This document shows, one piece after another, positions 1,619-11,109 of a DNA stretch of 32,245 nucleotides (positions within the stretch are counted from its first letter, which is position 1; the number at the start of each line of letters is the position of its first letter). The DNA is from a virus. The notes below the pieces were generated by a model. The model was not told where the DNA came from and searched no databases. It was given only the letters and a program-made list of their open reading frames with translations. Where the stretch lies: IMG/VR virus record IMGVR_UViG_3300022602_000227, positions 1 through 32,245 of that record; one strand, 5' to 3'. The translations under genes were made by a program, and so were the position numbers.

Positions 1619-1656
1619 CCTGCTATTTTGGATGACAAGGTATAACTACCTCGCTA

Positions 1657-1695
1657 TTAGGCGTTTGCCGTTAATAGATATGTATCGTCGTTTGC
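1657..1695 (-). other. tmRNA tag reading frame (ANDDTYLLTANA, stop)
   Basis: Twelve codons run from the resume codon GCA (1695-1693) to TAA (1659-1657). With the alanine charged on the tmRNA itself the tag is A-ANDDTYLLTANA. The start matches the proteobacterial AAND pattern, and the bases around the resume codon (TCGCAAACGACGA) match the E. coli gene closely. The end is ANA, not the usual (L/V)AA recognised by ClpXP and ClpAP, so the fate of tagged proteins may differ. Confidence 0.9.
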
Positions 1696-1804
1696 GATTA
1701 CTTTTTGCGTGTCTACGACCGGGTCGCCCCAATCCTAACGGGTTTCACATTCCCGGATTGTCTGGTCAAATACTAATTACCCAATCGATCACCATGTCCG
1801 CCCC

Positions 1805-1921
1805 ATCAGAAGAATTCTGTCTAAGGAGCAGGTGTCGCTCTAATGTTACAGGTTCACTTGTTACTGCTTAACACCTTCACCGCACGGCTTAATGCCGGAT
1901 ACGGTACATTCAGAATTCTTT
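1805..1921 (-). other. Intervening segment of the permuted tmRNA precursor
   Basis: These 117 bases separate the CCA end from the mature 5' end of the coding piece. The ends form the ten-base-pair AAGAATTCTG stem stacked on the acceptor stem. Inside, CGGC-ATTAA-GCCG and the distant AGGTGT/ACACCT can also pair. Such segments are removed in known two-piece tmRNAs. Confidence 0.8.
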
Positions 1922-1981
1922 TGGTGGAGCGGGGGGTTTCGAAACCCCGTCTTGAATACTTTTCTTTTTCCTTCATACAAT

Positions 1982-2061
1982 CATAAATATTTGAGTAAGG
2001 TGTTAGCGGTAACTAACACCAACCCCGGGGTTACTCGGGACTGTCCTCAAATGTATTTATA
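1982..2061. promoter_or_regulatory. Inverted repeat with divergent late-promoter boxes
   Basis: The arms CATAAATATTTGAG (1982-1995) and CTCAAATGTATTTATA (2046-2061) are near-perfect inverted copies. Each carries a late box: CATAAATA on plus toward the homing endonuclease, TATAAATA on minus toward the tmRNA. Inside, GAGTAA/TTACTC (1993-1998, 2031-2036) encloses a perfect eight-base-pair hairpin GGTGTTAG-CGGTAA-CTAACACC (1999-2020) and the palindrome AACCCCGGGGTT (2021-2032). In RNA from either strand the whole element can fold. It probably is a bidirectional promoter region and may also act as RNA structure. Confidence 0.6.
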
Positions 2062-2074
2062 AGGGTTACACATC

Positions 2075-2827
2075 ATGTTCTATATTGTATATAAAACCAT
2101 CAATCTTGTCAACAACAAATTTTATATTGGGAAACATACCCAAGATTTAGATCCATATCAATTTGATGGTTATTATGGGTCCGGATCGCAGATAATAAAT
2201 GCTGTCAAAAAATACGGCAAAGAAAATTTTATAAGAGAAACTTTGTTTGTATTTAATAGCGAAGCGGAATGTTTACTCAAAGAAGAAGAAACCGTAGCAC
2301 CTCATTTAGGAAAACCATATTGTTATAATATGCGGTCGGGCGGTATAGGTGGATTTGAGCACATAAATTCTATACCAAAAGAAGACAGACCAAATATAAA
2401 GGCATATCGTCAAAAAGTTGATTCAGGTGAGATTATGGTAGGTGGGACTCAAAATTGGACCGAAGAAACCTACAACAAAGTCAGACAAACAGGTTGGTCT
2501 AAATTAGTAGAAATGGGATTGTTAAATCCTAATACTTGGGAAAATTTAACCGAAGAACAAAGAAAAGAAAGATCCGAAAACTTATCTAAAAAAGTTTCTG
2601 GTAGCAACAATGGATCTTATGGAACAAAATTCTACTACAACATAACAACAAAAGAAAAGAAACGATTTAGGCCCGAAGATATTATCCCCGACGGATGGGT
2701 AAGTTCTATAGATTATTTTGAATCAAAGAAAAAGACTCACTGGTATAACAATGGGTCTAAAAGTTTTTTACTTAAAATAGGTGATCCTAAAATTCAGCAG
2801 TTGGGGCTGGTCAAAGGAAGATTGTAA
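2075..2827 (+). CDS. GIY-YIG family homing endonuclease
   Basis: A 250-residue protein whose N terminus contains the GIY-YIG signature (YIVY at 3-6 and FYIGK at 16-20) within a nuclease domain of about 95 residues. The C-terminal half carries the segment SGSNNGSYGTKFYYN..KKRFRPEDIIPDGW, similar to the small DNA-binding repeats of phage homing endonucleases, and a second partial copy (KTHWYNNGSKSFLL) near the end. It is a free-standing gene on the plus strand, opposite to its neighbours, as expected for a mobile homing gene. Ribosome binding is weak (AAGGG nine bases before ATG). Such enzymes cut cognate alleles lacking the gene and spread by recombination. The target is not known, but the adjacent tmRNA locus is a candidate. 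Confidence 0.88.
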   Translation: MFYIVYKTINLVNNKFYIGKHTQDLDPYQFDGYYGSGSQIINAVKKYGKENFIRETLFVFNSEAECLLKEEETVAPHLGKPYCYNMRSGGIGGFEHINSIPKEDRPNIKAYRQKVDSGEIMVGGTQNWTEETYNKVRQTGWSKLVEMGLLNPNTWENLTEEQRKERSENLSKKVSGSNNGSYGTKFYYNITTKEKKRFRPEDIIPDGWVSSIDYFESKKKTHWYNNGSKSFLLKIGDPKIQQLGLVKGRL

Positions 2828-2885
2828 TACCTTTGTCCTACCAAAGTCCAGAACTCCTTCATCTTGAAGGGATTATAACTATTCT

Positions 2886-2969
2886 TTACCTATAATTCTT
2901 ATACCAATCCCATAGCCAACATCCAAATATAATGAGGACTATAAGAAAACCTAAAATAACATCATCCAT
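2886..2969 (-). CDS. 27-residue membrane micropeptide
   Basis: The frame starts at ATG 2969 with AGGGG seven to eight bases upstream. It encodes MDDVILGFLIVLIIFGCWLW then DWYKNYR and a stop. Two aspartates precede one hydrophobic helix of about 17 residues, with a WLWDW interface and a positive C terminus, which predicts an N-out/C-in single-pass peptide. It follows the foldable RNA segment on the same strand. Small phage membrane peptides include lysis regulators and superinfection or host-takeover proteins, but nothing here assigns a role. The good ribosome binding site is the main support for translation. Confidence 0.5.
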   Translation of the reverse strand: MDDVILGFLIVLIIFGCWLWDWYKNYR

Positions 2970-2990
2970 ATTATACCCCTAAAAATGTTA

Positions 2991-3076
2991 TCAGACTCCG
3001 CAGGGCCGGTGGGTCCTCTGATTAGACTGACGGGTTTCTCACCCGACTGCTATTTGCTACGCAAACATGCCCCTGC
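2991..3076 (-). ncRNA. Unassigned structured RNA candidate
   Basis: Several helices can form in one compact segment: a closing stem GCAGGG/CCCTGC (3000-3005 with 3071-3076), a hairpin TTTGC-TAC-GCAAA (3053-3065) and a hairpin CGGGT-TTCTC-ACCCG (3031-3045). TCAGA/TCTGA (2991-2995 with 3017-3021) is an alternative pairing. Local GC content is clearly higher than in the AT-rich surroundings. It lies between a sigma70-type promoter and the micropeptide on the minus strand, where a leader or regulatory RNA would sit. I could not match it to a known riboswitch, tRNA or intron core. Confidence 0.4.
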
Positions 3077-3081
3077 CAGAT

Positions 3082-3168
3082 TTACTCACCATTTTCGTGG
3101 TCTTTGAATCGTATAAGTGAGTAAACAATAACGATTCCTATAACAGCGAATAATATAGAGTATAACAT
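3082..3168 (-). CDS. Possible 28-residue membrane micropeptide
   Basis: The frame reads MLYSILFAVIGIVIVYSLIR then FKDHENGE, a single hydrophobic helix followed by a charged tail. It has no ribosome binding site, and its start codon overlaps the -10 element of the promoter at 3159-3187. It could therefore only be read from longer transcripts, or as a near-leaderless message from the AATAAATA box at 3175-3182. The protein-like hydrophobic pattern is suggestive, but support is weak. Confidence 0.3.
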   Translation of the reverse strand: MLYSILFAVIGIVIVYSLIRFKDHENGE

Positions 3169-8202: not shown

Positions 8203-8384
8203 TATTCTTCTAAAAATTCTATGTTTAATCCACCTTCTTCGTCGACGTAAATTTTGTCTATGTCTTTACGTAAAGCCACTAGGATCATGGGCTTTGCTTC
8301 TTCTTCAATCTCAACATGTTCATGAATACCGTAATAACGTAACCATGTTAAAATTTCTTCATCGGTTGTTAATTCTTGATTCAT
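8202..8384 (-). CDS. Small acidic hypothetical protein
   Basis: A 60-residue, strongly acidic protein (MNQELTTDEEILTWLRYYGI at the start, GGLNIEFLEE at the end). It reads as an alpha-beta mini-domain with a helix at 7-18 and a strand pair near 32-57. The start overlaps the iscU stop (ATGA), and its stop overlaps the next start. I do not recognise a family. Size, acidity and tight coupling are typical of small phage accessory proteins that bind a larger partner. Confidence 0.7.
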   Translation of the reverse strand: MNQELTTDEEILTWLRYYGIHEHVEIEEEAKPMILVALRKDIDKIYVDEEGGLNIEFLEE

Positions 8385-8767
8385 GTTATACTTCTTTTTT
8401 CTTTATAATTCTGTACCGCGGCCTTAATTGCGTCTTCGGCAAGAATACTACAATGAATTTTTACTGGCGGGAGAGCAAGTTCTTCAGCAATGTCACTATT
8501 TTTGATATTGCCTGCTTGATCCAGGGTTTTTCCTTTGACCCATTCTGTGACCAGGCTAGAACTGGCGATCGCACTTCCGCATCCGTATGTCTTGAAACGA
8601 GCATCTCTAATAATACCATTCTCATCTACCTTTATTTGTAAGCGCATTACATCACCGCAAGCAGGTGCACCCACCATGCCAGTTCCAACGTCAGAATCAT
8701 CCTTGGAAAAAGAACCCACGTTACGTGGGTTTTCATAATGATCTATTACCTTGCTTGAATAACTCAT
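8381..8767 (-). CDS. iscU: IscU-type iron-sulfur cluster scaffold
   Basis: Started at ATG 8767 (MSYSSKVIDHYENPRNVGSF), the canonical IscU N terminus, overlapping the nrdA stop (ATGA). The 128-residue protein keeps the E. coli numbering: cluster ligands C37 (in GAPACGD, with D39), C63 (YGCGSA) and C106, plus H105. The LPPVK motif at 99-103, the binding site for the HscA chaperone, is intact. This is a complete and presumably functional scaffold that could work with host IscS and HscA/HscB. No other isc gene is seen. Its place between nrdA and nrdB suggests a supply of Fe-S clusters or iron during nucleotide synthesis. Host origin by transfer is likely. Confidence 0.93.
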   Translation of the reverse strand: MSYSSKVIDHYENPRNVGSFSKDDSDVGTGMVGAPACGDVMRLQIKVDENGIIRDARFKTYGCGSAIASSSLVTEWVKGKTLDQAGNIKNSDIAEELALPPVKIHCSILAEDAIKAAVQNYKEKRSIT

Positions 8768-11109
8768 AATTTGCAGGCCTCGCAATCCTCAACGTCATCA
8801 TATATTAACACATTGTCTGCGGCATTCACAACCGCTACCTGTTGTAGTGAGTTTGTATTGGTTACTGAAAGTTTGGCACCAACTTTGTTGATCAAACTAT
8901 AGTATACGGTCTTGAGTCCCCAACGATAGGCCAACATGAGATTTTTGGCAATAAGTGTACCTGGCACTTTTCCATCCGCAAAATGTGCTGGATTATAAAA
9001 AGTATTTGTACTCAGGCTTTGATCAACATAAGCGGCCAATACACAGGCTGTTTTTAGATAGCCAATACAGTCAGTTTGATCCCACATCAATTGATAACGG
9101 TTCTTTAGACGTTTGTATTCGGGTACTACTTGTACAAATGATCCAGCCTTTGATTCTTTTACACTGATCATTTCCATTGGCATTTCAATACCGTTAGTAC
9201 TATTCAATACAACTGAACTGGATTCTACAGGAGCAATTGCCATTAGTGTGGCATTACGAATTCCGTACTGTTTCATATTGGCACGTAGGGTTTCCCAATC
9301 TAAATTGGCACTGGGTGTAAAGTCTGCTAGTTCATTGACACCAGCGGCACGACGTTCCCATGGAAACACACCTTGACCATAATAGGTATATTCACTACGA
9401 GTGCATGGTCCTCTATCTTTTGCCAATTCAACACTGGCTTCTGTTAGGTAAAAAGCCTGATGTTCCATCCAACGTTTGACTTCGGCTAGAGCATCTGCTT
9501 CACCGTATTTGAAACTGCGGCGAGCATGCCAGTATGCTAGGTTTGTAACACCAACACCCAATGGCTCAAATTCAGAATTTGCTAATCGACTCTGTACGCT
9601 CAAAAAGTCTTGATAATTTAACAGATTACTTAAACTACGCACCAATACACGGCATGCCTTACGCATTTCATTTGGATTACGGAACGCACCCCAGTTTATT
9701 GACCCAAGAGTGCAAAGAGCAATTCGTCCCGCTGGATCTTCAATTCTCTGGAAAGGACGGGTGGGTAGTAGGATCTCTTGGCATAGATTTGATTGATATA
9801 TTGGATCTGTTGTTGTATCAAATGGACCTTGATTAATGACGTTGTCGATATTGACAAGATATATGCGCCCCGTATCAGTCCTTTCTTTAAGGATTCCATT
9901 TTTGAATATCTCAACTGCCGGTAATGTCTTTTTCTTAATTTTCGGATCTTGTTCATATTGTATGTACAACTTTTCAAATTCTTGACTATTTCTATAGTAT
10001 GCTTCATACAGGTCAGGAACTTCGTGTGGATCAAACAAACTGATGTTTTCTCCATTCTTATAGCGTTTCCAGAACAAAGCACTGACGACTACACTATAGT
10101 CCATTTGTCGTACACGTACTTCGTCAGTGCCTTGATTGTTCTTAAGAACAATCAAATCTTCAAATTGAGCATGCCATATGGGAAATGTAACTGTACACGA
10201 TGCGTTACGAATGCCGCCTTGGCTGCAACTACGTAAATCAGCAAACCATTTCTTTAAAAATGGAATCATGCCGGTGTGTTTAATTTCACCATTTCTAATA
10301 GGGGCTCCAAGTGGGCGAATTCTTCCAATTTCTAAACCAATGCCAGCACGTTTACTAGCGTACTTGGCCATCATTTCTCCAGCGGCAAAAATACTGTCTA
10401 ATGTATCATCACTGCTGATCAATACGCATGAGCTAAATTGCTTAGTAGGAGTACCAAGTCCTGCTAGTACAGGTGTTGCCAACGTAAAATGGCCATCTGA
10501 AGCGCATTCATAATAGTCTTTAACATATTTTAATCTTGTCTCCTTTGTTTCATTATGAAACGCAGTGGCTGCCGCAATAGCATAACGCACCTGCGGTGTT
10601 TCATAAATTTCTCCAGTAGCACGATTTTGTACCAAATATTTTTCTGCCAGTTGTGCAATAGCGGCAAATGTATAATTTTCATCTTTGGTATGGTCAATGA
10701 ATAAATCAATAATGTTCCATTCGTCTTCAGTGTACCAATCTAATAATTCTGAACTGTACATTGACAATTCAACATTACGTTTAACTATATCGTATAGTTT
10801 AGGAGGATCATAAGATCCGTAGACTTCTTTGCGTAGCATACTCACACGTTGTCTACCTGCTACATATTGATAATTTACGTTGTTTATTTCTGGATTTTCT
10901 GTTTCATCAACTAAATCGACCATGGCCTTGAGCAATAACTCATCTATGGTTTTAGTTGTCATTCCATCGTGTAATTCTATTTGTGCTTTAATTTCGATCA
11001 TAGACTGACTGACGCCATCTATGCCTCTACATGCATTGGCAACCTGTCTTTGAATCTTGCCCACATCTAGAGGAACTCGTTCCCCATTTCTTTTGACCAC
11101 TGTGATCAT
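8764..11109 (-). CDS. nrdA: Ribonucleotide reductase class Ia alpha subunit
   Basis: A full-length 781-residue NrdA that reduces ribonucleoside diphosphates in the cytoplasm. An ATP-cone allosteric domain occupies about 1-90 (MITVVKRNGERVPLD...). Catalytic residues are present: C228 and C466 (the redox pair), N441-C443-E445 in SNLCQEI (thiyl radical and acid/base), and the tyrosine pair Y736-Y737 of the radical path. The C terminus ends CEACKL, with cysteines C776 and C779 relaying electrons from glutaredoxin; the spacing is CxxC, closer than the CxxxxC of E. coli. No intein or intron interrupts the gene. AAGGT precedes the ATG. It is the first gene of the nrd-iscU-grx operon; no clear promoter was found in the short upstream gap. 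Confidence 0.97.
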   Translation of the reverse strand: MITVVKRNGERVPLDVGKIQRQVANACRGIDGVSQSMIEIKAQIELHDGMTTKTIDELLLKAMVDLVDETENPEINNVNYQYVAGRQRVSMLRKEVYGSYDPPKLYDIVKRNVELSMYSSELLDWYTEDEWNIIDLFIDHTKDENYTFAAIAQLAEKYLVQNRATGEIYETPQVRYAIAAATAFHNETKETRLKYVKDYYECASDGHFTLATPVLAGLGTPTKQFSSCVLISSDDTLDSIFAAGEMMAKYASKRAGIGLEIGRIRPLGAPIRNGEIKHTGMIPFLKKWFADLRSCSQGGIRNASCTVTFPIWHAQFEDLIVLKNNQGTDEVRVRQMDYSVVVSALFWKRYKNGENISLFDPHEVPDLYEAYYRNSQEFEKLYIQYEQDPKIKKKTLPAVEIFKNGILKERTDTGRIYLVNIDNVINQGPFDTTTDPIYQSNLCQEILLPTRPFQRIEDPAGRIALCTLGSINWGAFRNPNEMRKACRVLVRSLSNLLNYQDFLSVQSRLANSEFEPLGVGVTNLAYWHARRSFKYGEADALAEVKRWMEHQAFYLTEASVELAKDRGPCTRSEYTYYGQGVFPWERRAAGVNELADFTPSANLDWETLRANMKQYGIRNATLMAIAPVESSSVVLNSTNGIEMPMEMISVKESKAGSFVQVVPEYKRLKNRYQLMWDQTDCIGYLKTACVLAAYVDQSLSTNTFYNPAHFADGKVPGTLIAKNLMLAYRWGLKTVYYSLINKVGAKLSVTNTNSLQQVAVVNAADNVLIYDDVEDCEACKL

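Follow-up and report, generated by a model that had tools for sequence, protein, structure and literature searches.

A putative mobile cassette of GIY-YIG endonuclease gene, promoter and folded leader RNA at the 5' flank of a phage-borne permuted two-piece tmRNA gene

Phage-borne permuted tmRNA genes are already known: 53 two-piece tmRNAs have been reported in phage genomes, 50 of the 53 marine or aquatic, and they include that of the myophage Melnitz (Buchholz et al., 2022; PMC9004378). Homing endonuclease genes (HEGs) have in turn been described close to RNA genes. The free-standing GIY-YIG endonuclease gene segB of T4 sits in the tRNA gene region and drives its inheritance, other T4 HEGs carry embedded promoters that serve their neighbors, and stable RNA hairpins lie directly upstream of the ribosome-binding sites of I-TevI and of seg43(25) of Aeromonas phage 25 (PMC2988022). 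Group I introns that carry LAGLIDADG HEGs likewise use the tmRNA gene as a home (PMC11915505).

The locus described here lies in a 32,245-nucleotide stretch of viral DNA (the window; positions 1 to 32,245 of IMG/VR record IMGVR_UViG_3300022602_000227) and resembles each of these systems in part. As in Melnitz and the pelagimyophages, a two-piece permuted tmRNA matching RF04321 is found on a myophage; unlike the window, Melnitz is without a copy of the leader RNA and is reported with a glutamine riboswitch, and its tmRNA groups with the Alphaproteobacteria (PMC9004378), whereas the best subtype model for the window is beta. As with SegB, a free-standing GIY-YIG HEG lies near RNA genes, but its neighbor is a permuted tmRNA in divergent orientation, with a covarying leader RNA in between. 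In contrast to the LAGLIDADG HEGs, the putative HEG of the window is free-standing, of the GIY-YIG type and outside the gene, with no intron; and whereas the window shares with seg43(25) and I-TevI a stable hairpin just ahead of the ribosome-binding site of the HEG, its own is predicted to form a three-way junction with wobble pairs favoring the opposite strand. A permuted tmRNA on a phage, which the first-pass annotation had thought unusual, is therefore no novelty; what is new is a predicted HEG adjoining a tmRNA, a putative promoter reading into the tmRNA and a probable, previously unlisted folded leader RNA, none of which that annotation had noted. The features of the locus are:

1601 to 1620, minus: terminator-like hairpin with a run of T, downstream of the tmRNA; L240 and L265 have an identical hairpin sequence
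1657 to 1982, minus: permuted tmRNA gene (acceptor piece, intervening segment, coding piece to the tag stop), from RF04321
1657 to 1695, minus: tag frame ANDDTYLLTANA with UAA stop (GCA...GCC UAA)
1798 to 1804, minus: 5' acceptor strand GGGGCGG, start of the coding piece
1805 to 1921, minus: intervening segment; 10-bp closing stem in the MFE fold
1922 to 1982, minus: acceptor piece, with 5' helix strand GAUUG, T arm 1948-1933, 3' acceptor strand 1932-1926 and ACCA 1925-1922, from Rfam alignment and sequence
1982 to 1989, plus: CATAAATA, late-promoter-like, in the 3' strand of P1, toward the HEG; consensus match only
1983 to 2060, minus: putative structured leader RNA (P1, P2, P3 in a three-way junction, proposed kissing loop), from covariation, wobble pairs and models R1/R2
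2054 to 2061, minus: TATAAATA, T4-late-promoter-like, in the 5' strand of P1, toward the tmRNA; consensus match only
2075 to 2827, plus: predicted GIY-YIG HEG, 250 aa, at the 5' end of the tmRNA (PHROG 314)
2084 to 2112, minus: sigma-70-type promoter TTGACA-17-TACAAT (11/12), inside the 5' end of the HEG, toward the tmRNA

A covariance-model search of the whole window on both strands matched RF04321 at 82.1 bits against a cut-off of 47 (E 1.7e-14), with an alignment spanning positions 1-213 of the 213 in the model, bearing out the first-pass reading of a phage-carried permuted two-piece tmRNA. The parts which that reading had named were all recovered: on the minus strand, the acceptor piece (1982-1922) stands ahead of the coding piece, whose 5' strand (1804-1798) forms seven of seven pairs with CCGCUCC at 1932-1926, G3.U70 included; the tag frame, which comes after the resume codon, is complete and closes with a stop (1695-1657); and ten base pairs (1920-1911 with 1819-1810) close the intervening segment. 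The whole transcript region folds better than its shuffles (z -4.3). We are thus close to certain that minus 1982-1657 is a circularly permuted two-piece tmRNA, and processing into two RNAs, aminoacylation and tagging are plausible for its predicted product. Two other searches for a tmRNA gave less: RF01850 (beta_tmRNA) matched end to end (E 9e-16), but at 54.3 bits it stayed below the gathering cut-off of 84, the window differing from betaproteobacterial two-piece tmRNAs in its long intervening segment and short T arm, and ARAGORN made no call in the window. Beta is the best-scoring tmRNA subtype, which gives no more than a hint of a betaproteobacterial host; a search with the tmRNA stretch for the host lineage gave no match, and INPHARED phages held no close DNA relatives of either the tmRNA or the leader. 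No SmpB was found in the record, a 38-kb virus fragment; the tmRNA would therefore depend on the SmpB of the host, if none is encoded in the rest of the genome. Downstream of the tag, Rfam (E up to 1) returned a weak rsmX match.

Among related records, which are cited here by L numbers, the sister phage L240 has an orthologous permuted tmRNA adjoining the same neighbor gene, with a canonical T arm, the tag ANDEVYALAA and scores of 120 bits for RF04321 and 116 bits, above cut-off, for RF01850; the tmRNA of Melnitz was re-detected by RF04321 at 113 bits. Tags vary among these phages. That of the window, ANDDTYLLTANA, ends in ANA, not in the usual ALAA, as do ANDSQFLLAANA in L268 and L350 and ANDSHFLQAANA in L033, and this ending might alter the degradation of tagged proteins. 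Long tags of 22-34 aa occur in the permuted tmRNAs of L272/L352, L273/L349, L288, L296 and L310, a few of them without an AA end (AFV, LAV, IVA). The loose pattern scan for tmRNAs gave mostly chance matches and was therefore filtered; L351 was likewise rejected as a chance match.

The open reading frame at 2075-2827 on the plus strand is predicted to be a GIY-YIG homing endonuclease: it matches PHROG 314 (E 2e-30) and the I-TevI catalytic domain by profile (E 0.004) and by fold (probability 0.99), in a structure model that is confident only in the N-terminal domain. A Pfam search gave no match. For every homologue with at least 65% identity, the neighbor is a permuted tmRNA on the other strand, with the HEG immediately 5' of its acceptor piece; this arrangement recurs in eight phage backgrounds (the window, L265, L350, L354/L356, L353, L348, L352 and L349/L355, with near-identical contigs counted once), and in all eight the HEG start is at the same distance from the leader while most neighboring genes differ. 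Of 69 unique loci of HEG homologues overall, 36 have a tRNA or tmRNA gene no more than 300 nt away. For control ORFs the figure is 47 of 3573 with a tRNA nearby; the ratio is rough, since the control counts tRNAs only and its loci had been chosen for a tmRNA-like pattern. In L274, L278, L288, L290, L296, L297, L305 and L310 the geometry is different, a more distant homologue sharing the strand of a permuted tmRNA and directly preceding it, and many others adjoin tRNA genes. In L320, a 354-kb contig, an HNH nuclease ORF is followed by the remnant of a GIY-YIG HEG C-terminus (2478-3150) at the same tmRNA 5' site; nucleases thus seem to have landed at the 5' flank of the tmRNA more than once. A sigma-70-type promoter (12/12) lies over the start of the L320 HNH ORF and points toward the tmRNA; no leader was found at this site.

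With the promoter at 2112-2084 and the terminator-like hairpin at 1620-1601, the transcription unit of the tmRNA looks complete. The promoter is kept in 10 of 10 tmRNA-linked copies of the HEG, although its hexamers overlap conserved HEG codons and the conservation is therefore not independent and only suggestive; L313, in which no tmRNA was found, has lost the -10 and kept HEG and leader. T4 late-promoter motifs showed no excess in the whole window (5 against 5.1 expected), and several of them are 20-30 nt ahead of structural genes. Just past the tmRNA terminator, a perfect TTGACA-17-TATAAT promoter (1581-1553, minus) precedes a zinc-metallopeptidase-like gene with a HEMVH motif (1527-1102).

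Between the promoter and the acceptor piece are about 78 nt that probably form a structured leader on the tmRNA strand. Over an 81-nt stretch covering it, compared pairs of sequences are identical at 76-81 positions, including those in which identity of the HEG gene is down to 68%. The six distinct close copies differ at four base pairs, each of them changed on both sides; all cells pair (100%), and none of 500 shuffles reaches the covariation score. A search with leader model R1 brought up a diverged copy in L313, next to a different HEG (50 bits, E 3.6e-9), bringing the known leader sequences to seven only; with this copy added, 12 pairs show double-sided changes, in an alignment that was fitted to the model and so leans toward the structure. 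A kissing loop (GUAAC/GUUAC) is proposed with modest support, its one compensating change falling in L313 at an alignment insertion. Rfam (E up to 1) had no family at the leader, its matches elsewhere being the two tmRNA models and the weak rsmX. Pattern scans of all viral contigs placed the leader only beside this HEG clade; it was absent from 43 other phage records, and among other tRNA- or tmRNA-adjacent HEGs it occurs only in L313. Genomes from 84,980 species of bacteria and archaea held no true copy, two pattern matches failing to fit the leader model; L359, L360 and L361, from the pattern scan of these genomes, were rejected as chance matches.

Which transcript the leader serves is the point on which the main rival reading turns. 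It could be the HEG's own 5' untranslated hairpin, acting on the plus strand to control translation or timing of the HEG, with the tmRNA a bystander: on that strand AAGGG, the HEG's ribosome-binding site, comes right after the foot of the stem, hairpins and late promoters are on record for I-TevI, SegB and seg43(25) (PMC2988022), and the leader, which may thus serve the HEG, persists with it in L313, where no tmRNA was found. Against this, the wobble pairs number 12 GU to 1 AC, which places the folding on the tmRNA strand, where 100% of cells pair as opposed to 94% on the plus strand, and we hold control of the HEG to be possible but doubtful. Most likely, the leader would serve the tmRNA, in its expression and its trimming behind the insertion, though the nuclease at the same site in L320 manages without one, so that it is not always needed. 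It is rather improbable that the leader belongs to a new class of functional RNA, possibly a small ribozyme that cleaves itself or a processing signal, moving together with the HEG and freeing the mature 5' end of the acceptor piece; it would then do for a free-standing HEG what self-splicing does for an intron-borne one.

The T arm of the window (GGGG-U-UUCGAA-A-CCCC) is one base short of the canonical 5-bp stem and 7-nt loop, which most likely explains the failure of ARAGORN; the RF04321 cut-off does not demand a canonical T arm. An identical short T arm is present in L265 and L350, which come from other metagenomes, making a sequencing slip unlikely. Conceivably the HEG cuts the T arm of the tmRNA and the altered T arms of HEG-bearing alleles resist cleavage. 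Non-canonical T arms make up all three types linked to a leader-bearing HEG and 4 of the 32 in phage tmRNAs without a HEG (Fisher p 0.005, uncorrected for shared ancestry), but the HEG-free Melnitz and L176 share the GGCAG loop, the likewise HEG-free L173 shares UUCGAA, and HEG-adjacent tmRNAs of other geometry are mostly canonical. Since Melnitz has one of the T-arm variants without the leader cassette, target immunity of this kind is only a lead, and an unlikely one.

The short T arm and the missing ARAGORN call, together with the RF01850 score and the ANA ending of the tag, might also be taken as marks of a pseudogene decaying after HEG invasion. This is very improbable: every acceptor pair is intact, the helix before the tag shows a compensating change between the window and L265 (CGGG/CCCG for CGGC/GCCG), promoter and terminator are kept, the T arm is shared with L265 and L350, tags ending in ANA are also found in L350 and L033, and T loops of 6 nt occur in the tmRNAs of HEG-free phages as well.

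The window and L265 are different phages (77% DNA identity in the nrdA region) that are about 99% identical from ~2827 to ~1757, with a sharp drop on both sides; the block takes in the HEG, the leader, the acceptor piece and the intervening segment and reaches into the first part of the coding piece, and the tag of L265 is ANDAFYGEERLAA as against ANDDTYLLTANA. Between L350 and L354, the HEG (745/751) and the leader (81/81) are nearly or fully identical, compared with 23/42 in the T arm and 83/209 beyond the HEG. From the limits of these two blocks, HEG and leader together are the least that is shared, at times with the tRNA-like domain in addition, and the HEG module is probably mobile between phages. 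Co-inheritance of HEG, leader and tmRNA in one phage lineage without homing, for which it may be said that all these phages are uncultivated and that several contigs share other genes, fits poorly with near-identical, sharp-edged HEG-leader blocks in differing flanks of genomes otherwise diverged or unrelated, and is most unlikely. We infer homing as the cause of the movement, a reading that fits with SegB driving inheritance of the T4 tRNA region and with T4 HEGs embedding promoters of their neighbors (PMC2988022). Next to nrdA, the window has a NifU-like Fe-S assembly gene (8381-8785, minus), and an L265 ORF (2635-2961) resembles, by eye, an A-type Fe-S carrier.

Taken as a whole, we consider the following explanation likely. 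A pre-tmRNA on the minus strand would start at the promoter within the neighboring HEG, pass through the folded leader, the acceptor piece and the tag-coding piece, and stop at the terminator; removal of leader and intervening segment would leave two RNAs that pair as a tmRNA, which with host SmpB may free stalled ribosomes, ribosome rescue or tagging during infection being plausible. The 5' flank of the tmRNA would be the home of a mobile GIY-YIG cassette of HEG, promoter and leader RNA, moving between phages by homing and sometimes taking along the whole tRNA-like domain, which the permutation makes contiguous in the gene and so able to travel intact, while the tag region of the recipient stays. 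The leader would most likely let the displaced tmRNA be expressed and correctly trimmed downstream of the insertion.

How phage tmRNA genes spread has not been clear so far. The locus suggests one mechanism, in which a 5'-end HEG equipped with a promoter and a leader may swap the tRNA-like domain while the tag region remains in place, and it offers in the leader a compact covarying RNA without a named family, whose role is directly testable.
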